Shown here piece after piece: positions 26,328-58,518 of a DNA stretch of 64,000 nt; the first letter of the stretch is position 1; each line of letters starts with the position of its first letter. The stretch lies in assembly GCA_012267415.1 (NCBI GenBank), contig JAAXGN010000122.1:62001-126000 (forward strand), in the 5' to 3' direction. Both the position numbers and the translations under genes were made by a program. Source of the stretch: Candidatus Poribacteria bacterium. GTDB taxonomy: Bacteria > Poribacteria > WGA-4E > WGA-3G. Under the pieces are notes generated by a model that was given only the letters and a program-made list of their open reading frames with translations, was not told where the DNA came from and searched no databases.

Positions 26328-26523
26328 CAAACTACTCCTGTACAAGTTGATTATTGACAGATACCTAAACAAACGAACACTATACCATAAATTTAACGCT
26401 GAAAACAAGTTTAGGTTACCTGCTCTTCATGAATCTGCTTGACTTTAATGATAAGTATAAAGTATTATTTTAATAGTGTCAAGTCAAATTCCAATTCAAC
26501 CATAAGATTGTTAAGGTAATGTG

Positions 26524-41734: not shown

Positions 41735-44700
41735 TCATCGTGAACTTTTCAATTCGCTCCACGTCGTTGTCAGTTTATTCTTGGCAGAAATGTAACCTTT
41801 AAGACGTGATGTGGTAAGCACATTATGCTCACCCGCGAAAGATACATCTTCAATTTGATAGTAATACACAACACCCGCTTTCGCAGTCGAGTCAACCCAT
41901 TTATAGGTGTTACGCTCACCTGTTGTGCCTGCGCCTTGGATCAACACAGTATTGATCTGTTTATACTCTCCATCCTTACGCTGACTCCGTAGGATATTAA
42001 AACCTGCGTTATCAAGTTCGGATTCGGTTGTCCAACGGATAACGACTTCACCGTTTTCAAGTGTTGCACGGAAAAGGGATAAGGATACGGGGAGTTGTAT
42101 ACCTCGCACAAATCCGGGTGTGCTGATGTCCTTGCTCTCTCCATACCAGATTTTTGGAACTCTCTTGAATGCGGTATCCACAGCATGTACCCACGCATAT
42201 TTAGGTGGACGCTCTCTTTTCATTCCTAACGGCAGCACAGCACCTGTCATATCGCCTTCAACATTGCGATTAGGCACGGCAACACGCGGACGTCCGTTTG
42301 CGTCTCTGAGACGTATCAAGGACGTGCGATCCCCTTCTTCCGTTACCGCTGTCGACCAGCCCCAACTATAGGGATCGTCAATACTGATACCTTGACGAAG
42401 ATTCGGTGGGTTACCATCAAGATTGCCAACCTCATCAGATATAGTGCCATCACCATCAACTATCCGGATGTAGAAACCCCCTTCCGCATTCAGAATAGGG
42501 TCTCTCCTACTTGCCATGCTGAATTCATTGCGGAGCTCTGGATATATACTCGCGACTCGTGTATCTGGTAAATGATCTCTATCTGAGGGACGACCCTCAG
42601 ATGCCGCAATAAGCACAACCTGATTCGGTGGAATATAGGCAAATAGGTCCTTTAGGTTAACCGTGATATTCAGGTTACGCTTGTTCTCTATCCATGAACC
42701 TGAATCATGGTTCTCTATAATGAGCTGCCAACCTGTTTGATCTTCACTCTCTTCGCTACTATCCGCGGCAAGGTTAATACCACGCGTTTTAGAAGTATTA
42801 TAGAGTTCAATCCATTGTGTTAACCTATTGTTTGATGTGGTAAGCATCAATTCACTGACAATCAGTTTACCACCATCCAGTTGTGATATTTTCCCTTTTG
42901 CCACGTCATTGGGATAACCGGGAGTGCCGCCGTGCCGATCATTTGCCTCAACACGCCGGTCATAACCGATACCGGTGAAACCGATTTTTGTCCACGCATC
43001 TTTAAGGTAACCTTGCTTACTTCCGTCACGGACCCATACTTTGCCTGCCTCATTCAAGCGATCACCTTGGAGAAAATTAGCATTAGCTTGCGTATTTCCG
43101 TTCAGCGGGAAAACCTTTGTTTCCCAAATTTCACCATCAGATTTACCATCCGATTTCTTTTCATAAGCAGGCGACCCAGATCTTAGATCCCGTCTGATGA
43201 AATTAGCGTGGAGCGCGCCGGGCCCCGCAGCATCCTCAACATGATGTCCAGATAGATAGATATTTCTTTCTGCTGCCCCATCTTCTATCTCTTTTTCTGT
43301 TCTGACATCCCACGGTTTATTTCTACGAAGTATCAGCAACCACGCATCATCATTCGGAATTGCAAGATTGTTATTATCAACGACGAGATATCGTTGTGGA
43401 CCGGCACCGAAAGCTTGATTATTATCATCCTGAGTGATATCAAATCCAACAGATAGCAGCGTTTGCATCGGGTCCCTATTGACTAACAGTAGCACACCGT
43501 GTGCCGCAAGCGTATAATCTGGGAAACGAACGATTTCGGTTTCATTACCGAATCCTGTTGTTTTGGTAAGTACCCAATTTTGAAGGGATTGATCAGTATT
43601 TGAAACATTGCGCAGTTCAATCCAATCTGACCTGTCGTTCGCCAAGTTTCCAATTTCATTGATAATAATCTTGTTCTTTGCCGGGGTATCTCGGTTCGGT
43701 CTGGTCCGTGCGGTTGGCACTCTGGTAGCCTGGTTTGGCTTGCCGGGTGTACCTCGGTAGTTCCGCAGAAATAGGACTGATGCGATACCCCAATGTGCAG
43801 GCTCCCATCCGTTGTCGTAGTTAACACGTTGCATAGATTTGAACTCGCGCCTCGGTGTTGCGCTACTCCCGTGCTGTCCTTTACTATTAATGTTCCAAGT
43901 AAGATCATAAAACGGCACATTGCTCAGCATATCAGTTTCAGGTTCGGGACCGGGGAAAGCATTAGAAGTGGTGAATTTGATGTCAGAAGAATAAGTCGGT
44001 TCTGTACCCGGTGGCGGTGCTGCCTCTACTGGAGCATTAAACGCAATCGGTGAGGTCGTTCTATTGTAAACCTCAATCCACTGTTGCTCGGTGATTCTCG
44101 TAGCATCCCCGACGAAAGTTTCATCTTCAGCCCACATCACTTCGTTGATAACGAGTTGACGTTGGTTACGTTCGTGATCGTCATCATAGGTGTCATCTGC
44201 TGTTTTGCTGCCCAATCTGTTTGTCGAACCACCAGGTTCATTAACGCGTAGGTTGAGTGTTCCAGGTCCTTCGAATAGTGTCCACAGATTCGGCATGCTC
44301 TCATCTGAAACTTCACTCCAGTCAACTTTGGTAATTTCATAAGGTGGACTGTTCGATGGCAATGTTGGAACAGCCGCCGTTTTATCTGCAACGACAATCG
44401 CATAACCTAAACCTGGCACGTAACCTGGATTAGGGGACAAGCTTATCTGTTGGCATAGGAGTGGGTACAGCAAGAATTGGGATTCCAATATAGACTAACG
44501 TGACGGGATCAAGAGCTGTAACCATTACCAATTCATAACCTCGCAAGATAAAATAGGGATATTCTCCATCTGCAATGTTAGTGGTAAGGTCCCCAACCCA
44601 AGTTATGAAGTATGTTTTCGGATCGTTATCTTCACCTTCAGCCAAGGGAACAGAAGGGGTAGGACCAGGTATGCCAGCGGCGAAATTTAGATCATCTGCT

Positions 44701-44900
44701 GTCGGTTTGGGATTGGGTTCAACATTATATGTAAGTTTGACAACAAGCCGTTCGTCAGTTTCAGTAGTAGTTGTATCGTCCGCTGTATACGCACCGGATA
44801 TTGATATTTCAACAGGCTCAGCCAGTGCTGGCATTGCAACGAAGATGAACATCATAATAAGCAGAAAACAAGAGACGGGATTAAAGACTAAACTTTTCAT
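41735..44900 (-). CDS. Secreted lamin-tail domain protein, disrupted by a +1 frameshift
   Basis: One gene in two frames: 44900 to 44430 and then 44488 to 41735. The first part has a signal peptide (MKSLVFNPVSCFLLIMMFIF... then MPALAEP) and a beta-rich domain; the second has at least three lamin-tail-like domains (QLVINEVMWAED, IIINEIGNLANDRSDWIEL, LIVSELMLTTSNNRLTQWIE) and a C-terminal FN3-like module (WTTESELDNAGFNILRS). Where the frames meet, CTT GTC CCC TAA stands for an expected CTT GTC CCT AAT (L-V-P-N), so a single extra base in a C4 run (44433-44436) produces the shift. The frame resumes cleanly. It ends with the KLTTTWSELKSSR motif shared with two other secreted proteins. About 1050 residues in the restored form. 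Confidence 0.8.
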
Positions 44901-45061
44901 TTTATACTCCTTTAGTATAGTTGAATTTGGGTGTCGGGTTGCGCTTTACTCTCCCTAACCCACGAATTATATTTGCATGTCTGTAGGAGGGAACTCCGAT
45001 TCCCGACTACACACAGGGTCGAGATGCGGAAACCGCTTCAACAGAATATGGACATACTATT

Positions 45062-45220
45062 ATCACCCAAGTTGCTACCTATGTAGCACAATCTGCCAGA
45101 TTGTGCCATTAGGGGACGCAAACTGGCAGTTTACGCTACTAATATCGGCTAATTATCAGCATGTTTTCATTAAAGACGGTGTTGCCATGTCTAAAACTTA
45201 TAGGTAGCAACTTAGGTTAT
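45062..45220. repeat. MITE-3, short TIR element between two lamin-tail genes
   Basis: The 319-bp gap 44901-45219 has no gene. A ~159-bp element is bounded by inverted ends: AAGTTGCTACCTAT on the left (45069) and ATAGGTAGCAACTT on the right (45199-45212). Inside are two palindromes (GCACAATCTGCCAGATTGTG and ACGCAAACTGGCAGTTTACG) related to family C. The right end abuts the stop codon of the lamin-tail gene at 45220. Confidence 0.65.
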
Positions 45221-47504
45221 TATCTAAGATTTTTAAGTGTTCCCCAGGTTATTAAATGTTTGCCGGTCGGTGCAATAACACCCCGTAACCGGACCGTTGT
45301 CTGAATACCACGTGTACCCGTAAGGTCTACGTCCTCAAGTCTATAGTAATAAGCAACATCGGGTTTAGCGGTTCTGTCAATGAATTGATATGTGCTGCGT
45401 TCGCCAGTAGTGCCAGCACCCTGGATCAACTTCGGGTTGATACGTTGGAAGCTTTTGGCGCGTGAGGTGCTACGAAATATATTGAACCCTGCATTATTCA
45501 GTTCCGATTCCGTTGTCCAGCTGATAAGCACCTCATCCTTAACAAACTTTGCTGAGAAATGTGAAAGTTCCACAGGCAAAGGTTTGCCACGTCGATACCC
45601 CGGTGTGCCGAGATCCTGCGGACTGCCGTAGTAAATGCCTGCGACGAGATTCTTTGTGTCAACAGCACGAATCCAACCGCGCCTTGCTATCCCCGCACGC
45701 GGCACTTTTTCGTCAAAACGACGTATCAGGGAACTCCGAACACCTTCAACCAAGGTATCTGGAAGATCCCATGTCTTCTCGTCACCTGTAAACGTCGCTA
45801 TCTGGTCAACGAGGGTATCTTGAGAATTTGTCAGTTTCAGAGAAAATCCACCACCGGTAATGCTCTGGAATTGACTGACTATTATCTCTTGTTCAAGTCC
45901 TGCTATATGCAGAAGTGGCAATTGATAGACGTCATCATCTGAGAGGTTGCCACCCCCTGAATGCCTACCGAAAGCCGTAACAATCAATCTCGCTTGTTCT
46001 GGTGGGATGCGGAAGTCCTCTTCAAACGTAAATGTCAATTCTAAAGGGGCAGGTTGTGGACTTTTCCAATGGAGTTTCCATCCACTCAGGTTAACTTCTG
46101 TGCTGCCATTGTTATAGACTTCAAGCCATTGCGGTAATCCAGCTTCATCCCCGCCTGCCTCAAACATAAATTCGCTAAAGATGACTCTATAGGTAGCCTG
46201 TTCAGTTGGTGTTTGGTCCGTTTCATCTGTTCCACCTGCTCCACTTGCTCCTCCTGCTTCACCATTTTCATCTTCTTCACTATCTTCATCAGTTTCGTCA
46301 GTTTCCGATGATGCCTCGCCTGTGATGATGGTTTCAGTGATAACGAAAGCGTTTATACGACTATCATTCTGTGATTCTGCTATGACTGAGATCGTATACG
46401 TACCAGCTGTTGATAGTGCTGTGCGTGGAATCGTCAATGTAATATCCTCATAACTATCTGGAAAAAGCGTGAGTTCGGTTTGATCTAATATCGCAGTATC
46501 AGTAGAATCACTGACTGGTTCAAAATCTATCCTATCCAAATTGGAACCGGTATTTGTTATACGCAAGGTATAAGTTATATCGTCAGTATCACTCGTTGTA
46601 GAGGTCCGAGTTAGACCATCCAATCCCTCTAACGTAAGACCAACTCTGTTAGAGATTATATTCACTCTGACTGTAAGGGTGGAGGTGAGATTTTTGTCTA
46701 ATCCGGAAATCGCTTTGACTGTGACAGGATAAAAAGAGTATTTGGCAAAGAGAATCCCCGGAATTGTTAATGTCACTGCCTCTGAAGCTTGCGATGCAAG
46801 TGTTACTGAAGTTGATGAAAGTGCTAATTGTGCAAGTTCTGCTGTCATTGTCTCAAGATCTACTGCCTCTTGTCCAGAAAGCTCCGAGTAAGGACCACTA
46901 TCTGCAGATATTTCCAAGCTAATCGTATCAGGATCAGTACCGATGTTGGTAACCTGTAGGGTAAAAGTCGCATCAGAAATTGCAGTTGCTTCGGGTATGT
47001 TCTGAATGATATTTCCTTCAACAGTCAATTCGAAGTCAATAAGGGGGTCGTTCGGTTTTCTGACATTCAAAGTGAGAGGTATTTGAAAGAAGAAATCGGG
47101 ATCAGAAATATCCCCTCCTGTAAGCAATATATCAATTTCGTTCCGTTTTCCTGGTCGGTGTTTTGCGATTTCTGATCGCTCAATCGTAAGTGTCACATCA
47201 TGTGTTGCTGTCCCACGTAGAAAAAAGTTTTCGCCCGGACTAATTCCAACTGCAACCACCGCAATTGGATTTCTTCTTGTGATCGCACCATACTCCATAG
47301 TTATTGCGCGGTTCTCTCCCGCTTCACCTGTAAAACGGACGGTAAAAGTTATATCATCCGTATCATTAGTGTTAGTTCGTTGAGTTGCTCTGCCTACAAC
47401 TTCTATTGTTGTAGCATCAGCGGTTTGGGGTAAAGAAATCGGGGTAAAGAAATCAATGTACACAGTAGCAGTAGCGTAATCGTAAGTAGAACTCGTTTAT
47501 CCAT
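45220..47504 (-). CDS. Secreted lamin-tail/NEW3-like domain protein, signal peptide broken by 14-bp duplication
   Basis: The protein has two or three NEW3-like beta-sandwiches (LQVTNIGTDPDTISLEISAD, LRITNTGSNLDRIDFEPVSD), a lamin-tail domain (YRVIFSEFMFEAGGDE, QWLEVYNNGSTEVNLSGWKL) and a C-terminal FN3-like module ending KHLITWGTLKNLR. The start ATG 47504, with GGAGG upstream, opens a good signal peptide (MDKRVLLTITLLLLCTLISL), but a perfect 14-bp tandem duplication (47427-47454) pushes it out of frame. Removing one copy gives ...LISLPQTADATT, continuous with the rest. As it stands, translation would need to begin at an internal GTG (47463) without a signal peptide. The protein is otherwise intact (about 760 residues restored). 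Confidence 0.8.
47427..47454. repeat. Perfect 14-bp tandem duplication in signal-peptide codons
   Basis: GGGGTAAAGAAATC occurs twice back to back (47427-47440, 47441-47454). Because 14 is not a multiple of three, loss of one copy would restore the reading frame of the secreted lamin-tail protein. Confidence 0.95.
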
Positions 47505-47527
47505 TATTTGATCCTCCATATAAAATG

Positions 47528-48226
47528 TTAATACAACAGTGCATCAAACTGATCAGTATCCTTTTCCTCAATTGGATCGTCTTCAATAATTCGATCATCT
47601 TTGGTAATTGGGTCATCTTTGGTGTCTTTATCTGTTTTGTAACCAAAAATCTCTATTTCACGAATTTTCGCAGCAGCACGCGCGCGTCTGAAACCACCTA
47701 TCCCGGTTTTGCTATCTCATAAACTGCGTGTTACATTGGTTAACCTATTTGCACCTTGCTTGCGTGCTAATACTGCATCATCTGTTGTTCCTATAACAAC
47801 AAGCTTGACTTTGTCCGTTGGAAGTAGGTGAAAAACGGGAACAACGGCTATCCCTTTCTTGACACTTTGCACCTCTTTAATCAACTGCCAATCTGTATCT
47901 GATAAAGCACTTCCACCTTTGTCTACATAGAGATTAAATTTTTTGATATTATCTGAATGGATAATAATCTTACGAATAACCTTTTTCTCAGGTAAAGTGA
48001 TGGTAACTTCGGGGGCACTTCTCCCAACTCCCTTTGTTCCCCTTCTCGCCTGGGCATGACCGATGGTTTCCATATCGCCATCAATCGCTTCCATGCTGGT
48101 AGACTTAGTACCATCAAGTAGCGAGTAGTTATCGCTCCATTCTTGTACCGAAAACAGCACACTACACCCAATCATAAAGGTACAAATACATAAAAGTGAA
48201 AGCAGAATAAAAAATTTATTAACCAT
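47528..48226 (-). CDS. Lipoprotein with discoidin-like domain, in-frame TGA
   Basis: The first 169 codons encode a lipoprotein (signal FMIGCS, acylated Cys near 21) with a discoidin (F5/8 type C)-like beta-sandwich: EVTITLPEKKVIRKIIIHSD, LYVDKGGSALSDTDWQLIKE. The ORF stops at TGA 47719-47717, but the same frame stays open for another 62 codons to TAA at 47528, encoding RAAAKIREIEIFGYKTDKDT, which is a plausible natural C-terminus for this fold (I-R-E-I-E-I-F-G is a hallmark final strand). So TGA probably replaces a sense codon such as TGG. The tail ends in acidic repeats (KDDPITKDDRIIEDDPIEEK). A GGAG precedes the start. The lamin-tail gene follows 24 bp later. Confidence 0.7.
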
Positions 48227-48421
48227 TATGGTCTCCTTTGTCGGGATTTACGAATTACCCATTCGTTTTTCATAAATTGACATTTTAAACCCGACCTTTT
48301 TAGTAAACATAACATAGGATTTCATAAGATTATACAGATACTGCAAAAGTTATGCAAGTAAATTTTACATTTTAATTCAAATTTTAGTGAATTTATATCA
48401 ATTATTCCAAATTTGTGCGAT

Positions 48422-48538
48422 TTATAGTAAAATTAAAAATTAAAGAGACATATCAACGTTTACGATGACCAACCCGCGTAGGGGCGAGGTCTCCTCGCCC
48501 GCTGTGGAGTGTATCATTAATTCCGAAGTTCACTATAA
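48422..48538. repeat. MITE-1 copy 4 (inverted) with family A palindrome
   Basis: Opposite orientation to the other three copies: the left end is TTATAGTAAAATTAAAAATT and the right end complementary to TTATAGTGAACTTCGGAATT. The palindrome is at about 48477-48502. It lies in the 491-bp gap 48227-48717, in which the only other structure I see is a direct repeat of GGCATTCATACC (about 48589 and 48615) and a segment (AACTCCGATTCCTGACTA, 48646) that also occurs near 44990. Confidence 0.75.
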
Positions 48539-48717
48539 TAAGGAGTCGAGATGGAAGATTGGAAGGGGGGATGGGTGGATACTGCAATGGCATTCATACC
48601 CGGGGAATGCCAAAAGGCATTCATACCGTTGATTTCTTGATTTGAACTCCGATTCCTGACTATCACTGAGTTAAGTCGCGATTCAGACAAAAAAGGTAAC
48701 AATAACTTTATACCCCA

Positions 48718-49470
48718 CTACACCTCCACCATGCCGAATCCTGCGCTGTTTTTATCACCGAATCCGCATTCATATCCGGTCCGTATCAGCGCGACACTGC
48801 CGGTAACACGAAACGGACATAATACCCCGCGGATTTTGATTCCTCTGAAATCTACTAAGCGGGTGACTCTGCCTTCTTTTCTACGGATATAGGCGTTATC
48901 ATATTGGAAGGTGAGGGTGTCGTCTTGTGGGATGCGTCCATGTATGGCTTGATGTTTGTGTAGTAGGTTTTGACGGATAAGGTCGGAAAGATAGGGGTCG
49001 TCTGGTAGGCAGTAGTGGGTGCGGCGATTGCCATCAACTTCACGCACAGCGGACATGACAACAGGTGATAAACAACGGAAGAACATCTCTGACCGAAAAC
49101 AGGGGGCACGCGGGATCGTCACGTCTCTTACCCTTAGGTGACGATCCCCAATGGATAGTCTGCCTTCAGTGAGGAGGGTGTCCGCAAAGTGGGTTAGGAA
49201 TTCTACTACGGGTGAGGATACGGACCACGTTAAAGTAGACCGAAAATGGATCTGTTCACCCCTGATGTGCCGACGTTCCGCCATCAGTTGAGAGAAGGTG
49301 AATAGTTTGAACCGTTTCTCAGCGGCGTGAAAACCTTCTTCATGTAGAAAATCAGCAAATGCAGGATTAGATGCTGATAGGAACCGGTAAATCACACCGA
49401 CGAGTAGGTGGTTATAGTTGATCGGTAAAGTGATACCGTTGTTTACATCAGCAACGATTTTTACACGCAT
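48718..49470 (-). CDS. cas6: CRISPR-associated endoribonuclease Cas6
   Basis: A 250-residue Cas6 of the RAMP type. MRVKIVADVNNGITLPINYN and HLLVGVIYRFLSASNPAFADFLHEEGF are the usual first ferredoxin-like segment, FKLFTFSQLMAERRHI the second-strand region, and the C-terminal GYECGFGDKNSAGFGMVEV is the glycine-rich loop (G-x-G-x-x-x-x-G-x-G) that defines the family. His residues in the helix after strand 1 (YNHLLVG) may be catalytic. Cas6 cuts the pre-crRNA at the repeat hairpin. It stands 15 kb from cas8-cas7-cas5 and no repeat array is next to it. CGGAG precedes the ATG. Cas6 could serve the type I-B effector in trans. Confidence 0.9.
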   Translation of the reverse strand: MRVKIVADVNNGITLPINYNHLLVGVIYRFLSASNPAFADFLHEEGFHAAEKRFKLFTFSQLMAERRHIRGEQIHFRSTLTWSVSSPVVEFLTHFADTLLTEGRLSIGDRHLRVRDVTIPRAPCFRSEMFFRCLSPVVMSAVREVDGNRRTHYCLPDDPYLSDLIRQNLLHKHQAIHGRIPQDDTLTFQYDNAYIRRKEGRVTRLVDFRGIKIRGVLCPFRVTGSVALIRTGYECGFGDKNSAGFGMVEV

Positions 49471-49650
49471 CTGTTATCTCCGTTCCTTGTTATAGTGGAA
49501 TTTACAATTATGGTGAAATATGGAAATTATTATACACTTTCATCCCCTGATAGGTGCCATAAGGATATCGCACATTATGCATCAATCTAAGAAATTTATG
49601 CGTTAGTAAGAATACTCCTCAATATTTATTGTGACTGGGGATTGTCCATA

Positions 49651-49820
49651 TTCAGTCCCATAGGGACGATATGTTTATAGATCACGGTTAAACAAGGCCT
49701 CTTTAGTCCCGTAGGGACGATATGTTATCTAATTTCTTGTTTTACACATATCGTCCCTACGGGACTAAAGAGGGGGGTGTCAACGTTTTTCTATAAACAT
49801 ATCGTCCCTACGGGACTGAG
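49651..49820. repeat. Family D nested palindromes (four AGTCCCGTAGGGACGATATG units)
   Basis: Four copies of AGTCCCGTAGGGACGATATG at about 49654 (one mismatch), 49704, 49746 and 49795. The first two point right, the last two left. Copy 1 pairs with copy 4 including their flanks (TTTATAG), and copy 2 pairs with copy 3 including CTCTTT, so the whole region can fold into one long two-tier hairpin; each unit also contains a short GTCCC-GGGAC stem. It lies about 180 bp upstream of cas6. Confidence 0.85.
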
Positions 49821-49933
49821 GTAACTATTAGATTGGTTTATCTTCTTAAAATTCCGTTTATGGTGCGATTTCCTAAACACACCGTTGTAGACTGTATAAA
49901 TGATTCCATAATCCACCATAATTGGACACTTCT

Positions 49934-49988
49934 GTAGCGCAAACTTTTAGTTTGCGTCTCATCGGCACAAACTAAAAGTTTGTGCTAC
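49934..49988. repeat. Family C palindrome, double
   Basis: Two arms, GTAGCGCAAACTTTTAGTTT and its partner AAACTAAAAGTTTGTGCTAC, separated by eight bases; each arm is itself self-complementary around TTTTAG. It lies 14 bp beyond the dctM stop codon and may act as its terminator. The rest of the 49471-50001 gap, apart from family D (49651-49820), shows a single MITE-1-like end (49494) and degenerate family B traces (49546, 49860). Confidence 0.75.
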
Positions 49989-50001
49989 AATTCAGGGAGT
50001 C

Positions 50002-51288
50002 TCAGAATAAAGGTTCGGAGACTTTGCCAAGGACTTTCGGTAACCAAAGACTTAAATCAGGAATATAGGTTACAAGGATTAAGGCTATCAGGAGCAAACC
50101 GATGAACAGTAGAACGGATCTATAGAGTAAAACGACCGGTTTCTTGAACTTCATGCTTGATATGAAGAGGTTCATGCCGATGGGGGGTGTGAGATACCCG
50201 ATTTCAAGATTTGTTAAGACGATGACGCCGAGGTGTACCTTATCAATCCCTAACGCATCCGCCATAGGAAGAAGCAGTGGAACAATGATGACGATGGCTG
50301 AAAAGATGTCCATCAGGCAACCGACAATTAACAGGAAAACATTGAGACCGATGAGCGTTATGATCTTATTATCTGTGATGGATGTTATCCAATCAAGCAC
50401 CATATCAGGTACGCCGAGGTTAATTAGATAGTTTGTTAACGCTAATGCCATAGCGAGGATGATAAGGATCGCACCGACAAGCACCATACTCTCTTTAACG
50501 ATACGGGGTAGTGCTTTGACTGAAATGGATCTGTGAATACACATCTCAACAATACAGACATAGATAACAGTCAATGCTGCAACTTCGTCAAGTGATACGA
50601 AACCACTCAGAATTCCGCCCAAAACAAGTAATGGCAGGAACAGTTCCCATTTTGCGTCCCAAAGTGTTCGGAAGAATTCATCCCAGTTAAACGGGGTTGT
50701 TTCAGTCTTTTTAAAGAGACTCCAACCACTGCAATATGAGCTGAGGATGAAGAGGATAATTAGTCCCGGGATAATGCCGGCAAAGAACATTGCATCAATA
50801 TCTACTTTCGCGATGATAGCGTATAGAATGAGTGGTATACTAGGAGGGAACAGTAGACCGATGCTTCCTGATGCAGTGATCAATCCGAGCGAAAAGTTCT
50901 CATTATAGGTCTGACGTAAGATAGGATAGACTAAACCACCAAGGGCAATGATCGTTACGCCGGACGCGCCTGTGAAAGTGGTGAAAAACGCACATGTCAC
51001 GAGGACAACGATAGCAATACCACCCGGTAACCACCCGACGCTTGCTCTGGCGAATGCAACTAACCTTTGCGGTGCTTTCCCTTCTGCAATGATATATCCG
51101 GCAAGTGTAAAGAGCGGAATAATATTAATTGTAGTGTATGCTGTGAGCCTATTGATTTCAATGAGGATTACACTGATTGGAAAATCGGCAGCTGCAAATC
51201 CGATAATCGTTGCGCCACCGAGTAGGACAAAGAGTGCACCTCCCAAGAGGGCAAACCCCACTAATCCGATACCGATAAGTATTCCCAT
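50002..51288 (-). CDS. dctM: TRAP transporter large membrane subunit
   Basis: A 428-residue protein with about twelve transmembrane segments in the DctM/SiaQM-M family: GVTIIALGGLVYPIL, LLFPPSIPLILYAIIAKVDI, the conserved FLLIVGCLMDIFSAIVIIVP and LTPPIGMNLFIS. It forms the translocating part of a sodium-driven TRAP system with the small subunit encoded directly upstream (TAATG overlap, one base shared). The periplasmic binding protein (DctP) is not in the window, so the substrate is unknown; family substrates include dicarboxylates, sialic acid and sugar acids. The next gene on the minus strand is not part of this unit. Confidence 0.92.
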   Translation of the reverse strand: MGILIGIGLVGFALLGGALFVLLGGATIIGFAAADFPISVILIEINRLTAYTTINIIPLFTLAGYIIAEGKAPQRLVAFARASVGWLPGGIAIVVLVTCAFFTTFTGASGVTIIALGGLVYPILRQTYNENFSLGLITASGSIGLLFPPSIPLILYAIIAKVDIDAMFFAGIIPGLIILFILSSYCSGWSLFKKTETTPFNWDEFFRTLWDAKWELFLPLLVLGGILSGFVSLDEVAALTVIYVCIVEMCIHRSISVKALPRIVKESMVLVGAILIILAMALALTNYLINLGVPDMVLDWITSITDNKIITLIGLNVFLLIVGCLMDIFSAIVIIVPLLLPMADALGIDKVHLGVIVLTNLEIGYLTPPIGMNLFISSMKFKKPVVLLYRSVLLFIGLLLIALILVTYIPDLSLWLPKVLGKVSEPLF

Positions 51289-51824
51289 TAGTCAATGTCT
51301 CCTTCGGTATCAGCAGTAACCGTATCATTACCTGTCAAACGGATTCCGAGCTGTAGCAGTAGGTGAATATCTATGATAGAAAATCCGATGGGTATGATTG
51401 TCTTTGCCCACCATAAAGGTATTGTTCCGATGAGAGTTTTCGGACTCTCCTGTTCATCAATCAGGAATACGAACCCGTAGTAGACTAAGATACTTACGAC
51501 AATTATGCTTAAAATATCAATGAGATAATGGCAGTAGTGTTTGATTTTTTCGGGTAAGATGTGATTGAGCACATCTATGCTGATGTGTCGTTTCTCGGCA
51601 GTGGCAAGTGCAGCACCCAGAAAACATAACCAGAGTGTGAGGTTTTGAAGCATCACCGTTTTCCAGAGCAGACTTATACCGAAACCGTAACGTAAAACGA
51701 TTTCAAGAATTGCGAGTCCGATCATTAAAGCAATGATTAAGCACAACAGAACTGTTTCGATTTTGCTCAAGAAGGTGTTTATACGTTGCAGTACCATAAG
51801 CGTCAATTTAGTGATTGTTCCCAT
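51288..51824 (-). CDS. dctQ: TRAP transporter small membrane subunit
   Basis: A 178-residue protein with four helices in the DctQ pattern: LLCLIIALMIGLAILEIVLRY, NLTLWLCFLGAALATAEKRHISIDVL (the W-L-x-x-x-G-A-A-x-A-x-x-x-x-x-H-I signature), IDILSIIVVSILVYYGFVFL and IPLWWAKTIIPIGFSII. It stabilises and assists DctM. The start ATG 51824 lies inside a tandem repeat: the same start region occurs again upstream in two further copies (51851 and 51907), the last of which also has an ATG and would give only a 12-codon peptide. Confidence 0.9.
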   Translation of the reverse strand: MGTITKLTLMVLQRINTFLSKIETVLLCLIIALMIGLAILEIVLRYGFGISLLWKTVMLQNLTLWLCFLGAALATAEKRHISIDVLNHILPEKIKHYCHYLIDILSIIVVSILVYYGFVFLIDEQESPKTLIGTIPLWWAKTIIPIGFSIIDIHLLLQLGIRLTGNDTVTADTEGDID

Positions 51825-51972
51825 TCTGGTAGGTGCGATATCCTTATCGCACCATAAGCGTCAATTTAGCAACACCCCGTTCTGGTAGGTGCGATATCCC
51901 TATCGCACCATAAGCGTCAATTTAGTGATTGTTCCCATTCTGGTAGGTGCGATTAGGAAATCGCACCTACCG
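51793..51972. repeat. Tandem triplication of dctQ start region with family B palindrome
   Basis: Three copies of a 56-58-bp unit (51793-51850, 51851-51906, 51907-51972). Each holds the dctQ start segment (CATAAGCGTCAATTTAG) and a family B palindrome. Copy 3 retains ATG followed by G-T-I-T-K-L-T-L-M-V-R then a stop. The spacer of copy 2 differs (AACACCCC). Confidence 0.85.
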
Positions 51973-52042
51973 GCCTGCGGTATAGCTGCTCTCTGCGGTT
52001 TTATCTCTTGTCCATCCATCCTTCCACCCATTTACGCTTCCA

Positions 52043-53296
52043 CTATTGTAATACTTGAATACCCGCTGCAGGAAGGATGGCAACTTTCGCGTTAGGTGGC
52101 AGTTTCTCTGTCATCAGTTGTATCAACTGCTCTAAATCTCGGAAGAGGAGAGATGATGGATACTCTTTGTAGAAATCATCTCTATCAAAATGCTCAGACC
52201 AGACATGAAGTTGTGATTGTCTTCCCAGTTTTGGTTCTGGGGTCGGTTTCGTGGGTAACCTTTCTATTTTCTGACGTACATACTTCGGATAATCGAGTCG
52301 GTCGAACAGACCGTGAAAACATGATCCATCGGTTGCTGGATAGAGTGCAATGGTGTATGCGTTCTCAAAATAGGAGAAGGCAGCCAGTGCTTTATCAAGT
52401 TGAATGGCGTCTGCGTCAAGCGGATAGCAGTTTATGATGACCAGGTCGCTTTGTGTGCGAGTTGTTTCGGATATTTTGGTCCTGTAGGTATCCAAGGCAA
52501 AATGTGAACCTTTACGGTGTGCCTTAACGAAATCTCCCACGAAGAGACCACATATTTCTCGGCGACTATTGAGGACGACATTGGCGATAGCATCCAATCC
52601 GAGCGCAGCTGCTGCCATCTCAATCGTATCCCTTCTGTCGGGTTCGTCGCTCTCACCTTCAATTACGGCGGGTCCGCGTCCGGGAGGAAATTTATGGAAA
52701 TAATACATGGTTGAGAAACCTGCGGTGCCGGGAACGATGAGTTTTGCCCCACCACTAAAACCGACTGAACTGTGTGGATGGAGCCCACCGAGACAGATTT
52801 TGAAATCTGCATCCGCGACTGTGCGATTGATATAGAGCGGCGTGCCGTTTTCAAGATTTCCCAATGCGCGTAAATCTTTGCTTAGGAAGTCATGGTTTGT
52901 CACCTCATATTCTGCTACGATATCTGCTCCGAGTTTTTTTACCATCTCTTCATCGGAAATAGGACGGTGTCCACCAACGCCGACAACAAATCGGATTTCC
53001 GATTTAGGCACACCTGCTGTGTTAAATTCACGGAGTAGAAACGGAATAACCTGATATGCGGGTGTGGGACGACTCATATCATCTACGATGATGGTCGCAC
53101 TCTTCTTGTCTTTGGCTAATTCAGAGATACGTTTTGTGCCGATTGTTTCAGCAAAGGCTTTTTCGATCTGTGCGTTGGTGAGGGCAGGTGCGTCCTTAGG
53201 GTTCAGCATCTCTATATGCCAATCGGTTGGAAAACTGAGTGTGAGTTCGTTATCCCCGTACCATGCACCGGATCGGACAGTAGCAGTGTTCTTCAT
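52043..53296 (-). CDS. LarA-like nickel-dependent racemase family protein
   Basis: A 417-residue protein of the LarA/DUF2088 family. Family landmarks include VDDMSRPTPAYQVIPFLL (nucleotide-cofactor loop), VGVGGHRPISDEEM, an NHD turn, LGGLHPHSSVGFSGGAKLIV (the SGGAKL loop) and PGTAGFSTMYYFHK. LarA racemises lactate using a nickel-pincer nucleotide; related enzymes racemise other 2-hydroxy acids such as malate or phenyllactate, so the substrate here is open. The His and Lys residues of the motifs are present. It is the last gene of an operon with pyrG and kdsB (11-bp gap). GAGG lies before the ATG. Confidence 0.8.
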   Translation of the reverse strand: MKNTATVRSGAWYGDNELTLSFPTDWHIEMLNPKDAPALTNAQIEKAFAETIGTKRISELAKDKKSATIIVDDMSRPTPAYQVIPFLLREFNTAGVPKSEIRFVVGVGGHRPISDEEMVKKLGADIVAEYEVTNHDFLSKDLRALGNLENGTPLYINRTVADADFKICLGGLHPHSSVGFSGGAKLIVPGTAGFSTMYYFHKFPPGRGPAVIEGESDEPDRRDTIEMAAAALGLDAIANVVLNSRREICGLFVGDFVKAHRKGSHFALDTYRTKISETTRTQSDLVIINCYPLDADAIQLDKALAAFSYFENAYTIALYPATDGSCFHGLFDRLDYPKYVRQKIERLPTKPTPEPKLGRQSQLHVWSEHFDRDDFYKEYPSSLLFRDLEQLIQLMTEKLPPNAKVAILPAAGIQVLQ

Positions 53297-53306
53297 AACT
53301 CATCCT

Positions 53307-54920
53307 CTATTCAAGTTCTTGGTGTTGATGTGTCAATACCGCTGCGATAAAATCCCTGAACAACGGATGGGGTGTGAGCGGTTTAGATTGAAATTCCGGA
53401 TGGAATTGTGAACCTATCATCCATGGATGGTCTGCCACCTCAGCGATTTCGACCAGACGCCCATCAGGGGAAACGCCACTAAGTGTTAGTCCAGCGTCAG
53501 CTAATTGTGATCGGTAATCGTTGTTCACTTCATAACGGTGTCGGTGTCGTTCTAAGATAATCGGTTGCTGATAGGCGTTGTAGCTGATCGTATTTTCTTT
53601 TAGCACACAAGGATAATGTCCGAGTCGCATTGTCGCGCCCTTGTCAGCGATTCCGCGTTGTTCTAACATCAGGTCTATGACGGGATAGGGGGTCTGTTCG
53701 TCTACTTCAGTGCTGTTTGCATTCTTTAGGTTCGCGACATTTCGTGCCAATTCTATGACAAGACACTGCATACCGAGACACAAACCGAAGTAAGGGATAC
53801 TGTTTTCACGAGCATATTTAACCGCCATAATCATCCCTTCAATGCCACGGTCACCGAACCCACCGGGGACCAAGATGCCATCAATGTTTTGGAACAGTGC
53901 ATCTAAATCTGTCTGTTCAGTTACATCCTCAGCTTCAATCCATTCTATATGGACTTCTGTGTTATTAGCGATTCCACCGTGTTTTATTGCTTCTTGCACA
54001 CTGATATACGCATCACACCCCGTCGTGTATTTCCCTACGATAGCGATATGCGCCTTATGTTGTGGATTTTTCAGTTTATCCACCATTGCGATCCATTCAG
54101 CGTCCAAGGTAGCACGTCTTTCAAGCCTTAACTTTTTTGAGACGAGGTGTCCCATACCCTGTTCTTCAAAGTTGAGTGGAATTTCATCAACACATTTTGT
54201 GTCTAATCCTTCTAAAATGAAGTCTTCACTTATACCACACAGAAGGGCGATTTTCCTGCGAACACTCTCATCAATGTGTTGACTTGTTCTGCATAACAGT
54301 AAGTCCGGATGTACACCTAATTCCTGAAGTTTGCGGATACTGTGCTGAGTCGGTTTACTCTTGCTTTCACCGTTTGGGAGTGTGTAGATAAGTGAAACGT
54401 GGAGAAATAACGTGTTTTCTCTACCGACTTCAACAGCCATTTGTCTGATAGCTTCAACAAACGGTAGCATTTCAAAGTCACCAATTGTGCCGCCAATCTC
54501 CGTGATGACGATGTCAACAGCGTTGTCTTTACCGATCTGATAGATGCGGCGTTTGATTTCATCGGTAATATGTGGTATTAATTGAACCGTTTGTCCGAGA
54601 TAATCACCGCGGCGTTCTTTTTCTATCACTTCAAGATAGACAGAACCGGTTGTAAAGTTTGATTGCTGGTTTAGGTCAACACCGAAGAAACGTTCATAGT
54701 TCCCTACGTCCAGATCAGTTTCAGCACCGTCGTGTGTTACAAATACTTCCCCGTGTTGGAATGGGTTCATTACACCTGCGTCAACATTCAAGTACGGGTC
54801 AATTTTGACGACATTTACTTTGAATCCACGGTTTATGAGGAGTCTCCCTAACGATGCAGTTGTTATACCTTTTCCTATTCCCGATATAACGCCACCTGTA
54901 ACGAATATGTATTTTGTCAT
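53307..54920 (-). CDS. pyrG: CTP synthase
   Basis: A 537-residue enzyme with the full amidoligase (MTKYIFVTGGVISGIGKGIT, KIDPYLNVDAG, EIGGTIGDFEMLPF) and glutamine amidotransferase parts (GLCLGMQC, with the nucleophilic Cys; FHPEFQSKP for His-Glu). It converts UTP, ATP and glutamine to CTP. Its direct partner in the operon, kdsB (10 bp upstream), consumes CTP to make CMP-Kdo. AAGGGA lies before the ATG. The length (about 535-550 in the family) and motifs are complete, and the stop is TAG (ELE-stop). Confidence 0.98.
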   Translation of the reverse strand: MTKYIFVTGGVISGIGKGITTASLGRLLINRGFKVNVVKIDPYLNVDAGVMNPFQHGEVFVTHDGAETDLDVGNYERFFGVDLNQQSNFTTGSVYLEVIEKERRGDYLGQTVQLIPHITDEIKRRIYQIGKDNAVDIVITEIGGTIGDFEMLPFVEAIRQMAVEVGRENTLFLHVSLIYTLPNGESKSKPTQHSIRKLQELGVHPDLLLCRTSQHIDESVRRKIALLCGISEDFILEGLDTKCVDEIPLNFEEQGMGHLVSKKLRLERRATLDAEWIAMVDKLKNPQHKAHIAIVGKYTTGCDAYISVQEAIKHGGIANNTEVHIEWIEAEDVTEQTDLDALFQNIDGILVPGGFGDRGIEGMIMAVKYARENSIPYFGLCLGMQCLVIELARNVANLKNANSTEVDEQTPYPVIDLMLEQRGIADKGATMRLGHYPCVLKENTISYNAYQQPIILERHRHRYEVNNDYRSQLADAGLTLSGVSPDGRLVEIAEVADHPWMIGSQFHPEFQSKPLTPHPLFRDFIAAVLTHQHQELE

Positions 54921-54930
54921 TTTATTCCCT

Positions 54931-55683
54931 TCAAAGATGAGGGCCTCCCTTTTCTAAAATCGCTTTTACTTTTTCTAAATCTGCGGGTACATCAACACCG
55001 ATAAGAGGTGTATCGGTTTCGACCACATGAATTTGCACACCGTTTTCCAACAGACGCAACTGTTCTAAATTCTCGGAAATTTCATAAGGTGTACGTTCCC
55101 AGATTGTGAAAGCGAGTAATTGTTCTTTTCGGAACGCGTATAATCCGATGTGTTTGAATACTGAAGTGTTTCCGTTAATGCTCGGTTCTGTGTTTGCGGG
55201 TGAACTCGGTATTGACCCTCTTGAAAAGTATAACGCATCGCCCTGAAGATTAGTGACAACTTTTACGATGTTCCTATTGCGGTAATCTTCAATCGTATCT
55301 ATCCGCTCTTTCAAAGTTGTGACCTGTATATCCGGTCTATCAATAAAAGGTTGGAGCATGAGATCAATCTGTTGTGGTTCAAGGAGAGGTTCATCACCTT
55401 GTATATTGACAACGATATCACATTCTATTTTCTTGGCGACTATTGTCACACGGTCGGTTCCTGTGGGACAATCCGGGGTCATTTCTACGTTTCCACCGAA
55501 ACTTTTCACAGCATTATAAATCCGTTGGTCATCTGTAGCGACAATAACTTGGTTGAGAAGTTTTGACTGAGACGCGCGTTCATATACATGCTGCACCATC
55601 GGTTTTCCCAAAATATCTGCTAAAGGTTTCCCCTCAAACCGAGTTGAGGCATATCGTGCTGGTATAATGGCTATACTTTTCAA
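54931..55683 (-). CDS. kdsB: 3-deoxy-manno-octulosonate cytidylyltransferase
   Basis: A 250-residue enzyme that activates Kdo with CTP to CMP-Kdo for LPS core assembly. It has the typical IIPARYASTRFEGKPL, VIVATDDQRIYNAV, CPTGTDR and VVNIQGDEPLLEP motifs and the two-domain length. It starts with TTG at 55683, overlapping the symporter stop (TTGA, four bases), the only start that matches the family N-terminus. This placement suggests translational coupling to the sodium symporter gene, and pyrG follows 10 bp later to supply CTP. Its presence is the best evidence for a Gram-negative envelope in this organism. Confidence 0.97.
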   Translation of the reverse strand: MKSIAIIPARYASTRFEGKPLADILGKPMVQHVYERASQSKLLNQVIVATDDQRIYNAVKSFGGNVEMTPDCPTGTDRVTIVAKKIECDIVVNIQGDEPLLEPQQIDLMLQPFIDRPDIQVTTLKERIDTIEDYRNRNIVKVVTNLQGDALYFSRGSIPSSPANTEPSINGNTSVFKHIGLYAFRKEQLLAFTIWERTPYEISENLEQLRLLENGVQIHVVETDTPLIGVDVPADLEKVKAILEKGGPHL

Positions 55684-57464
55684 TCGTCTGTTCTCTTTTC
55701 GCGTGGTAGATTCTTATACATGATATATCCTGATATAATTGCTATTGATAGAAAGCTTAATCCTATAGCGGTAAAACCTAATAGTAGTTTACCAATACTG
55801 AATAGGAATGTGTAGATGAAGATGACACCGACTATCCAATTGACCAATGCTGGTGTTCTGGTTTCTGCATAAGTCTGTTGTCTGTTAGTATCATCTGATT
55901 CCTCTTTAATTTCTGCTGCGATTAACATCCATCCTATTTTGCTGGGTTTAACCTTACTATAGAATTTGGTGAGAGTTTCTGTAGAAACAGGTTCAGTGAT
56001 AAATGTAACGACCACCCATACCACTGTTGAGATTGGCACAATAATCAACATCTGTATTGCGAATTCATTGGTTTGCGGTAACGTGAACACAACAATAGAT
56101 ACGACTAAAGCTGCTAACATGGCTGATATTTCTGACCATGCGTTTATTCGCCACCAATACCATCGTAGGATCTGGACGAGTCCGATACCCGCATTCAGTG
56201 CAATAAGAAATTTCCATGCCCCCGCAATGGAATCCATGAAGAGACTTGTTACACCGGCAACTATCATAATGAGGATGACAGCTAATCTGGAAATTGCGAC
56301 GTAGTGTTGCGGCTCTGCTTCAGGTTTTAAGAAGCGTTTATAAAAGTCGTTAACGAGATATGAGGCTCCCCAATTCAGGTGTGTGTCAATTGTTGACATG
56401 AAGGCTGCTAAGAAGGCTGTTAACATCAATCCGAGGAGACCGACAGGTAAATATTCCAGCATAAGCAGGGGATAACCGGCTTCTGGGTCTTGTAACATCG
56501 GATTTGCGTGATTAGGATCTCCTAAGTTTGGGTAGACGACCATGGCAACCAATGCAACGAGTATCCAGGGCCACGGACGGAGTGTGTAGTGGGCGATGTT
56601 GAACCATAACGTTGCAAGAAGTGTATGTCTCTCATTCTTTGCTGCGAACATACGTTGCGCAATGTATCCGCTTCCATCCACGCCGTTTGATGCCCACCAT
56701 TGCATGCCGAGATACACGCCGAACGTTATGATAGCCATTTTACCAGCACTAAAATCGGGTGTGAAGTTTAGTATCTGGTTTTCTGCTCCATATATGTCAG
56801 TCAGTTTTTCTTTTATCACACCGACACCACCAATTTTGTTGACAGCAATAATTGCAAGTGCGATTGAACCTACCATCGCCATACCGAATTGGACGATGTC
56901 TGTCATCACAACACCCCAAAAACCTGATAACGCACAGTAGATTCCTGCGATTAAAAGACATGCCAAGACTACGATGACTTTTGTGGATGCAGTATCAGGT
57001 AAGTTCAGTGTAAGCACGACGATTTTCTGCATTGCAAGGATGACCCATCCCATCGTAATGCAGTTTATCGGTAAACCGATATAGAGTGCGCGGAACCCAC
57101 GGAGAAAACTGGCGGATGGGCCTGAGTATCGGAGTTCGGTAAATTCGACATCGGTGATGATTTCTGACCGTCTCCAGAGTCGGGCGAACAGGAAGGTTGC
57201 CAACATGCCGCTGAGGACTGCGTTCCACCATAGCCAGTTCCCCGCAATTCCATCTTCAACGACAAGACCCGTTACTGCAAGCGGTGTATCTGCGGCGAAG
57301 GTGGTTGCTACCATAGAGGTGCCAGCTAACCACCATGGAAGATTTCGTCCTGATATAAAAAACTCGTTCATATCCTTACCGGCACGTTTGGAAAAATAGA
57401 TACCGAGTCCGAGTGCAAATAGGATATATCCGATTATTATTGCCCAGTCAATGGCTGAAATCAT
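55680..57464 (-). CDS. Sodium:solute symporter family transporter
   Basis: A 594-residue SSS-family transporter with about thirteen transmembrane helices. It begins AIDWAIIIGYILFALGLGIY and has the SSS signature GRNLPWWLAGTSMVATTFAADTP, LLGLMLTAFLAAFMSTIDTHLNW (helix 8-9 region with T/S-rich sodium site) and a long C-terminal hydrophilic loop of about 60 residues. It imports an unknown solute, perhaps a sugar or amino acid. It is the first gene of the kdsB-pyrG-larA-like operon, with CGGAG before the ATG. The closeness of its stop to kdsB suggests coupling rather than a functional link. Confidence 0.88.
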   Translation of the reverse strand: MISAIDWAIIIGYILFALGLGIYFSKRAGKDMNEFFISGRNLPWWLAGTSMVATTFAADTPLAVTGLVVEDGIAGNWLWWNAVLSGMLATFLFARLWRRSEIITDVEFTELRYSGPSASFLRGFRALYIGLPINCITMGWVILAMQKIVVLTLNLPDTASTKVIVVLACLLIAGIYCALSGFWGVVMTDIVQFGMAMVGSIALAIIAVNKIGGVGVIKEKLTDIYGAENQILNFTPDFSAGKMAIITFGVYLGMQWWASNGVDGSGYIAQRMFAAKNERHTLLATLWFNIAHYTLRPWPWILVALVAMVVYPNLGDPNHANPMLQDPEAGYPLLMLEYLPVGLLGLMLTAFLAAFMSTIDTHLNWGASYLVNDFYKRFLKPEAEPQHYVAISRLAVILIMIVAGVTSLFMDSIAGAWKFLIALNAGIGLVQILRWYWWRINAWSEISAMLAALVVSIVVFTLPQTNEFAIQMLIIVPISTVVWVVVTFITEPVSTETLTKFYSKVKPSKIGWMLIAAEIKEESDDTNRQQTYAETRTPALVNWIVGVIFIYTFLFSIGKLLLGFTAIGLSFLSIAIISGYIMYKNLPREKRTDD

Positions 57465-57589
57465 GCGATTTTTCTCCGAAGGAATTAAGATAATTTAGCG
57501 TAATTTTGGCAATAAATCAAGTAAAAACTGTTTTTCATTGGCATAAGCAAAGTAAAAGTGTTAAACTTTTTATGTTAAAAAACAGAATT

Positions 57590-57689
57590 AAGCAATATTA
57601 AATAATTGAATTATCAATACCGTAGGGGCGGGGTCTCCCCGCCCGTCATCAACGTGCCACCTGCAAATTTAATATTCAAACTTGCTTAG
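57590..57689. repeat. Candidate TIR element with family A palindrome
   Basis: A family A palindrome at 57621-57645 is flanked by AAGCAATATTAAAT on the left (57590) and the inverted pair AATATTAAATTTGC with AAGCAAGTTTG on the right. The arms are imperfect, so the element call is tentative, the palindrome firm. Confidence 0.5.
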
Positions 57690-57720
57690 GTGATATTCGA
57701 AACATAAAGGAGTAAAAAAG

Positions 57721-58518
57721 GTGAAACGTACTGTTTTTGTTTTCTTATGTGTGTTTTTGTTAGCACAAATAAATGGACTGTATGCAGATGTGTTGGATCC
57801 GGATCTGGTGCTTTATTTTGATTTTGAAGAGTTTAGCGGTAATACCGTTATTGAGAAATCTGGACGGGGTTACGATGGTAAAATTAATGGAAACGTTAAG
57901 CAGTCTAACGATGGAAAATTTGGTAAAGCAGCTGAGTTTACATCAGGGGGTTTTCTTGATTTAGACGGTCCAAACATTAATCCTGACGATATACCGACTG
58001 AAGGGATGAGTGTCGTTGCTTGGATTAATGTTGATGCGATAGCGGACATGGCGATTTTCAATGCTCGTGCACAGGATGGGACATGGTTGGTTCATCCTGA
58101 AGCACGTGGTGACGGTAATTTTCGTTGGCTCAATCGTGGTCCTAATCCAAATCGGACGATTTTTGATATCCGTGGAGGCACAAACAAAGCAAAGGAATGG
58201 GTGCATTACGCAGGGACATACAGCCGGGAAGAAGGAGAAGCATTTCTCTATATTAACGGTGAACAGGTTGGTCATGAGAAAGCAAGATTGGACACACCTA
58301 TCGCTGGAGACTGGGGACAGGGTGCGCGTGTTGGTTACAATATTGATGATAACCGTCCTTTTGCTGGGTTGATGGATGAACTGAATGTGTGGAAACGTGG
58401 TTTAACGCAGGAGGAGGTAAAATCTATCATGGAATTCGGTATGATTGAACATCTTGCTGTAGAAGCGCGTGGAAAGTTGGCAACAACATGGGGCCGGTTG
58501 AAAGGGACAAAGCGTTAA
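57721..58518 (+). CDS. Secreted LamG-type concanavalin-like lectin protein
   Basis: A 265-residue protein starting at GTG 57721 with AAAGGAG upstream. It has a signal peptide (1-22, LLAQINGLYADV), one LamG/Laminin_G_3-type beta sandwich (LVLYFDFEEFSGNTVIEKSG; GYDGKINGN; FGKAAEFTSGGFLDLDG; MSVVAWINVD; WVHYAGTYSREEGEAFLYIN; GLMDELNVWKRGLTQEEV) that fills most of the chain and the C-terminal motif KLATTWGRLKGTKR. It probably binds a glycan outside the cell. The same C-terminal motif is found in the two lamin-tail proteins, although their domains differ. No neighbour suggests an operon. Confidence 0.88.
   Translation: MKRTVFVFLCVFLLAQINGLYADVLDPDLVLYFDFEEFSGNTVIEKSGRGYDGKINGNVKQSNDGKFGKAAEFTSGGFLDLDGPNINPDDIPTEGMSVVAWINVDAIADMAIFNARAQDGTWLVHPEARGDGNFRWLNRGPNPNRTIFDIRGGTNKAKEWVHYAGTYSREEGEAFLYINGEQVGHEKARLDTPIAGDWGQGARVGYNIDDNRPFAGLMDELNVWKRGLTQEEVKSIMEFGMIEHLAVEARGKLATTWGRLKGTKR

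Follow-up and report, generated by a model that had tools for sequence, protein, structure and literature searches.

Why should secreted proteins with different domains end in the same few residues? The question is raised by a 64,000-nt window of a Candidatus Poribacteria genome (assembly GCA_012267415.1, contig JAAXGN010000122.1, positions 62,001 to 126,000 of the forward strand), in which two lamin-tail proteins and one LamG protein share the C-terminal motif K-L-x-T-T-W-x-x-L-K. The original prediction, made from the letters of this stretch, took the motif for a lineage-specific surface-sorting signal. Our analysis indicates that the motif belongs to a tail of about 16 conserved positions, and that this tail is very probably some form of C-terminal targeting signal. 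It recurs at the end of many proteins of the same genome, mostly behind a predicted signal peptide, with differing domains before it, and it is found throughout the phylum.

We confirmed the three C-termini on the window proteins (ISAKNKLTTTWSELKSSR, IAPTGKHLITWGTLKNLR and VEARGKLATTWGRLKGTKR). Their carriers had been described as unrelated, which holds for the LamG protein and the lamin-tail protein at 45220, between which no significant match was found. The two lamin-tail proteins (41735-44488 and 45220-47463), however, are paralogous over their last ~380 residues (BLASTP 2e-51, 35% identity), so that the window offers two independent tail carriers, not three. All three had also been credited with signal peptides, one of them broken by a duplication. 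The LamG protein does carry its signal peptide in frame and the 45220 gene is indeed broken by a duplication, but the 41735 gene is frame-broken as well; two of the three genes are thus interrupted between signal peptide and body. From its position, we infer that an open reading frame (ORF) at 44430..44900, for which no Pfam match was found, and the frame downstream of it are parts of one gene, that of the first lamin-tail protein. At 44430-44488 this signal-peptide ORF overlaps the body frame, which may reflect a real mutation or an assembly error.

To see how far the tail extends beyond these proteins, we searched the window's genome (5.46 Mb in 170 contigs). At the DNA level, a pattern for T-W-x-x-[LIM]-K occurred at 100 sites, compared with 80 for the reversed pattern; the DNA pattern alone is therefore weak, and place and context carry the signal. 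A recurring C-terminal sequence was evident in the first 30 loci obtained with this pattern. We then used a hidden Markov model (HMM) profile of the tail, built from 17 rows and run at E ≤ 10 with 150 of 191 candidates scored. It returned 127 matches, far more than the three of the window, and the sequence of 75 stretches showed 122 of them to be C-terminal (≤10 residues from the stop codon). The consensus, derived from 121 of the 122 tails (the tail of rank 118 was left out), reads V-[ED]-[PA]-x-G-K-L-[TA]-T-T-W-[GA]-x-[LI]-K and is followed by 0-10 residues, with ~16 positions conserved; a longer form is [LF][AP]V[ED][PA]xGKL[TA]TTW[GA]x[LI]K. Counted from the tryptophan, which is present in 121/121 tails, position +4 is lysine in 119 and arginine in 2, position -5 is lysine in 113, and position -10 is valine or isoleucine in 114. 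The tryptophan is followed by 4 to 11 residues in 120/121 tails and by 14 in one.

The terminal position was equally clear at the level of ORFs. Among 218 non-overlapping ORFs of own-genome loci, the protein pattern was terminal in 106 and internal in 1, and among 392 ORFs of named loci from the phylum it was terminal in 94 and internal in 0, with the reversed pattern terminal in 0 in either set; both sets of loci had been chosen because they bear the motif. Tailed paralogues also stand in tandem, in runs of four genes at L084 and L093 (G000:C68 and G000:C86; e.g. G000:C86:237400-240113), which suggests family expansion.

A sorting signal of exported proteins should be enriched behind signal peptides, and this was strongly so. 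In the own-genome loci, a home-made, lenient rule, under which untailed ORFs score 40-47%, predicted a signal peptide for 99/106 ORFs with the tail and for 53/112 without it (Fisher p 1.6e-14); in 80 named loci, the figures were 93/94 and 118/298 (Fisher p 2.9e-29). The opposite outcome, a motif found mostly on proteins without signal peptides, was not seen. Across the 122 tailed frames of the genome, 105 scored positive, the call for the 41735 frame being spurious (its signal peptide lies in the other ORF), and 17 scored negative, among which several frames are short or broken. The body clusters and family matches of tailed proteins given below refer to the 105 that scored positive.

The claim that the tail is shared while the preceding domains differ was borne out on this larger set. 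The proteins fell into 20 body clusters by single linkage, the largest with 55 members. In the 3992 pairs whose bodies show no detectable similarity, the tails were 51% identical, compared with 8% for the 20 residues before them. Among the best 25 of 93 families, the bodies matched LamG (56), propellers (5-7), LRR (4), LTD (3), CBM9 (3), a peptidase family (3) and others, and no Pfam or NCBIfam family among those listed for the window and the tailed proteins describes the tail itself. LamG is the commonest partner: 57 of the 68 LamG matches in the genome run straight into the tail and two further ones carry it. The other nine, whose frames span 314 to 3395 residues, show no tail match, and one of them (a 1116-residue frame at G000:C127) has a type A sorting domain of the type IX secretion system (T9SS). 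An AlphaFold2 model of the window LamG protein (50 sequences) had a mean predicted local distance difference test (pLDDT) score of 86.9, with the tail among its weakest parts (59 and 67 in the last two blocks); a short helix of low confidence at 253-262 lies in the tail, outside the sandwich. As far as this one model can tell, the tail is not the last strand of the fold.

We also asked at which level the tail is constrained. In the own-genome tails, glutamate at -9 is encoded by GAA in 49/49 cases (73% in bodies, p 3e-7) and glycine at +1 by GGA in 48/84 (30% in bodies, p 5e-7). At the conserved positions of the 122 tails, the codons for threonine, proline, valine, lysine and the glycine at -6 are mixed and close to body proportions. 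Judged by codon use, the conservation of the tail acts at the protein level. Lysine is strongly preferred over arginine within the motif (K120:R2 at +4 and K114:R3 at -5), compared with K50:R65 after it, in the 122 own-genome tails; the corresponding phylum counts are biased, since their search pattern fixed both lysines. This preference exceeds what bare charge would need, and a specific binding pocket or a lysine chemistry would suit it.

The proposed restriction to one lineage was upheld: the tail profile matched in 84/84 genomes of the phylum and in 1/99 genomes of another phylum. Using a phylum profile from 79 tails, with at most 105 candidates scored per genome and matches counted wherever they lay in frame, we found matches at E ≤ 0.01 in all 21/21 genera, at 26 to at least 105 per genome. 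The single matching genome of the other phylum gave one strong and one weak match, and its sole match at E ≤ 0.01 was a 28-residue frame on a 3.8-kb contig. This other-phylum carrier, L168 (JAFDHL010000343.1), is a small contig of a 'Deltaproteobacteria' metagenome-assembled genome with a Poribacteria-type tail, and was probably mis-binned. In a species-level collection searched with the DNA pattern, 79 of the 80 matches listed (at least 116 stretches) are labelled as Poribacteria and one is this 'Deltaproteobacteria' contig; the pattern matches of these loci are, without exception (82/82), 12 residues or fewer from a stop codon. Poribacteria are largely sponge-associated. The same tail occurs in loci of KatS3mg115 and SpSt-970, which we take to be hot-spring records.

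Which machine might read such a tail? The statement that no T9SS, PEP-CTERM or sortase tag fits it held good, yet the genome encodes T9SS-type SprA, PorV/PorQ and PorU-like proteins along with 69 proteins bearing the TIGR04183 type A domain (70 rows, one of which shares its frame with another). TIGR04183 domains were present in 21/21 genomes searched, at 32 to 82 each. The two endings do not meet: the tail ends 0/69 type A proteins, a looser form of the motif is internal in 1/69, and three non-terminal tail-profile matches that fall in TIGR04183 frames were not counted as tails. Body types overlap, with propellers under either ending, in a type A survey that left out 4/69 proteins for length. 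By a simpler rule, 54/69 type A proteins have a signal peptide. Sizes differ, the type A proteins having a median of 754 residues and the tailed bodies a median of 241, with 96/105 under 350. Mutually exclusive endings on overlapping bodies would fit alternative signals of like function. For the 105 tailed proteins, neither TIGR04183 nor Por_Secre_tail was among the best 25 of 93 and 25 of 28 families, where a single match could hide. We rejected the idea that the tail is itself a type A sorting domain, since it has ~16 positions, lacks GxY and is modelled as a low-confidence helix rather than a beta-sandwich domain.

The translocon was represented by a divergent protein. SprA_N (PF14349) matched in 78/84 genomes at E ≤ 0.001, over its cut-off in 30, mostly once per genome and in frames of ~2150-2300 residues where the contig permits. 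TIGR04189 (SprA) was matched by 15/15 SprA-like proteins, at best with 9.1e-54. A Foldseek search with a model of a 1161-residue segment returned four SprA chains as its best four matches (E 3.6e-26 to 5.4e-20; next 2.9e-4). The own-genome protein can thus be counted as the SprA/Sov translocon expected of a T9SS. The PorV family (PF19572) was found in 84/84 genomes, over cut-off in 79. Two own-genome proteins scored 202.9 and 192.5 bits on NF033709 (cut-off 90), which provides the PorV/PorQ component; the PorV- and PorQ-specific models were matched below their cut-offs, and one of the two proteins matches PorV in the PDB (6h3i_F, E 1.2e-11). A PorU-like C25 sortase (NF033707, E 1.2e-111) itself ends in a type A domain, and C25 peptidases occurred in 39/39 genomes. 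Together, the T9SS-type proteins and the 69 type A proteins make a T9SS-like route the leading candidate. They also bear on the question of Por genes in Poribacteria. A single-cell study reported type A sorting domains and no structural Por genes in this phylum (Kamke et al. 2014, PMC3909097), and a 2025 paper states that T9SS is exclusive to Bacteroidota (PMC12618676).

Taking these observations into account, we favour the reading that the tail is a second, ultrashort, Poribacteria-specific C-terminal sorting signal, recognised at the outer membrane by a T9SS-like machine, although we would put its chance at slightly less than even. In this scheme, the proteins would be exported by Sec through their predicted N-terminal signal peptides. 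Once in the periplasm, each would present a folded body, a short linker and then the exposed tail V-x-P-x-G-K-L-x-T-T-W-G-x-[LI]-K. Near the outer membrane, the likeliest reader of the tail would be SprA with a shuttle of the PorV/PorQ family, and the tail would do in compact form what the ~90-residue type A domain does for other proteins of the genome. Finally, the cargo would reach the cell surface or be retained there, perhaps, more speculatively, with removal of the tail or a lysine-dependent attachment. A fuller and more tentative version is a divergent T9SS with two signals, the ~90-residue domain on large proteins and the ~16-residue tail, with its two near-invariant lysines, on about a hundred mostly small ones that often bind glycans or matrix by type, the tail being read directly by shuttles of the SprA/PorV family and possibly joined through lysine.

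Several observations weigh against a T9SS-like reader. The tail fits no T9SS sorting-domain model, lacking their length and the GxY motif. The own-genome match to PF14349 is below cut-off, the SprA-like protein scores 167 bits against the curated TIGR04189 cut-off of 200, and PDB profile searches did not find SprA; the segment model used for Foldseek is also weak (mean pLDDT 54.1, template modelling score 0.27-0.31). The PorU-like protein, at 374 bits, falls below its cut-off of 420. The GldM motor (TIGR03517) was over cut-off in 0/39 genomes, with one weak match (E 0.0042), though a divergent motor may be present. A tailed gene lies near sprA in 2/21 SprA loci, most of which have short flanks. 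Moreover, since nearly every genome of the phylum has the tail as well as T9SS parts, co-occurrence cannot link them, nor can it link the tail to any processing protein. Two tailed genes were observed a few kb from the PorU-like gene (L396, G000:C69:125175-126085); the nearness of tailed genes to sprA or to this gene may be chance.

The tail might instead be a docking tag that binds a dedicated, Poribacteria-specific receptor at the surface or in the periplasm (an anchor, S-layer or matrix protein), independently of T9SS and after passage by Sec and some other outer-membrane route. We consider this a serious possibility, if on balance a doubtful one. It draws on the same phylum range, signal-peptide link and body independence; in addition, the tail is unlike any T9SS domain, the type A domains are already candidate T9SS signals in the same cells, and the near-absolute lysines would be in keeping with a specific pocket or with covalent attachment. 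Yet no receptor candidate emerged from a search that covered T9SS families only, and outer-membrane proteins of a machinery for reading C-terminal signals are already present in the genome. It is unlikely that the tail merely serves handling in the periplasm, keeping exported proteins unfolded, soluble or retained, or marking them for quality control or proteolysis. A short tail near the end, outside the fold, perhaps helical (by one low-confidence model) and almost confined to ORFs with predicted signal peptides would be compatible with such a role. The bodies, however, are of glycan- and matrix-binding types (LamG, CBM, LRR), and the 0 to 10 residues that follow the motif argue against a reader of the free C-terminus.

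The remaining explanations deny that the tail is a signal at all. It could form the final strand or helix of widespread domains, LamG or an FN3-like fold for example, as the direct succession of LamG and tail in most LamG matches and the FN3-like region that precedes the tail in both lamin-tail proteins might suggest. The 20 body clusters, the nine LamG matches without a tail and, with low confidence, the position of the tail outside the LamG sandwich make this very improbable, and the refuting outcome named in the original prediction, a last strand of a common domain in all hits, was not what we saw. Still less credible is an artefact at the DNA level, by spread of a short translated repeat or because a few genes were duplicated recently. 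There are tandem paralogues among the tailed genes, and the codons at two positions, GAA at -9 and GGA at +1, do depart from those of the bodies, but the other conserved positions have mixed, body-like codons, the tail stands at the 3' end of its frame, and it occurs in 20 body clusters.

The features on which the analysis rests are collected in Table 1.

Table 1. Positions of the tailed genes in the window and of the T9SS-type and neighbouring genes elsewhere in the analysed loci
Feature	Position	Strand	Support or remark
First lamin-tail/FN3-like protein, tail (ISAKNKLTTTWSELK-SSR)	41738..41803	-	HMM match G000:C61:103738-103803, E 5.3e-8
First lamin-tail protein, tail-bearing ORF, signal peptide outside the frame	41735..44488	-	LTD 2.9e-19
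Separate ORF starting with a signal peptide (MKSLVFNPVSCFLLIMMFIFVAMPALAE...), taken as the broken start of the first lamin-tail gene	44430..44900	-	
Second lamin-tail protein, tail (IAPTGKHLITWGTLK-NLR)	45223..45288	-	HMM match G000:C61:107223-107288, E 2.3e-7
Second lamin-tail protein, tail-bearing ORF	45220..47463	-	LTD 1.8e-12; paralogue of 41735-44488
Perfect 14-bp tandem duplication in the second lamin-tail gene	47427..47454	-	Separates signal peptide (start ATG 47504-47502) from body, in differing frames
LamG protein, tail (VEARGKLATTWGRLK-GTKR)	58447..58509	+	HMM match G000:C61:120447-120509, E 1.3e-9
LamG protein (signal peptide, LamG domain, tail)	57721..58518	+	Laminin_G_3 3.8e-22
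LamG protein, signal peptide	57721-57786	+	Judged by eye
Divergent SprA	L274:6640-13098 (G000:C28)		
PorV/PorQ-family proteins	L392:6227-7180 (G000:C146); L393:6345-7460 (G000:C170)		
PorU-like C25 sortase	L333:385-5649 (G000:C69)		
Tailed genes near sprA	L275:12798-13568; about L408:1-360		

Some other features of the window were noticed. A 1247-residue protein at 26521-30264 is an unusual outer-membrane fusion of DUF4097, CBM9-like, POTRA and Omp85 domains. A 621-residue WD40 protein at 37316-39181 has a signal-peptide-like start, but both the tail and a type A domain are absent from its end. A Cas6 gene (48718-49470) is accompanied by short near-repeats (49651-49817), which form two families resembling reverse complements of each other.

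We found no description of the tail in the mostly open-access literature searched, PMC3909097, PMC5087111 and PMC8546597 among it, and on T9SS parts in Poribacteria only the study of Kamke et al. (2014). At ~16 residues it would be, to our knowledge, the shortest T9SS-type signal. The tail provides a sequence handle on the proteins exported by a sponge-associated candidate phylum, about half of which are LamG-type among the tailed proteins of the window's genome, and the divergent T9SS proteins make cargo recognition directly testable. A signal of 16 residues would also serve as a handy display tag.

How does the tail compare with known systems? The encapsulation or cargo-loading peptides of bacterial compartments are short linear peptides that follow a flexible linker, as the tail does, and act on cytosolic cargoes. 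We rejected this identity because 99/106 and 93/94 tailed ORFs have a predicted export signal. PEP-CTERM, GlyGly-CTERM and LPxTG tags combine a hydrophobic segment with a basic end on which a sortase-like enzyme acts, and resemble the tail as lineage-wide C-terminal regions of exported proteins. This identity was rejected too, as the column counts of the 121 tails contain no hydrophobic run and no LPxTG; no CTERM family was among the 25 of 28 NCBIfam families listed for the 105 tailed proteins.

The closer parallels lie within T9SS. According to one paper, type A signals take up ~100 and type B signals 150-235 residues, and the type B C-terminal domain (CTD; TIGR04131), with its PorP/SprF shuttles, is a second signal class in one genome, as the tail would be; it is read by a shuttle different from that of type A and commonly adjoins the shuttle gene (PMC12618676). 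The tail, in contrast, is short and its genes are dispersed. Prevotella intermedia has both shortened and long signals in the same cell, with a conserved basic residue near the end, which is again reminiscent of the tail; its 'short' CTDs retain motifs B, D (GxY) and E, at positions up to about 60, and short and long CTDs were modelled as binding PorV in the same manner (PMC11969387). No recognisable B or D motif is present in the poribacterial tail. The nearest comparison is with the type A CTD (TIGR04183 / PF18962), which differs in having ~70-100 residues, a beta-sandwich and GxY. Like the tail, it is a C-terminal signal on many unrelated exported proteins per genome; the body types of the two overlap (propellers, LamG), and both endings occur, together with SprA, PorV and PorU-like proteins, in one genome.

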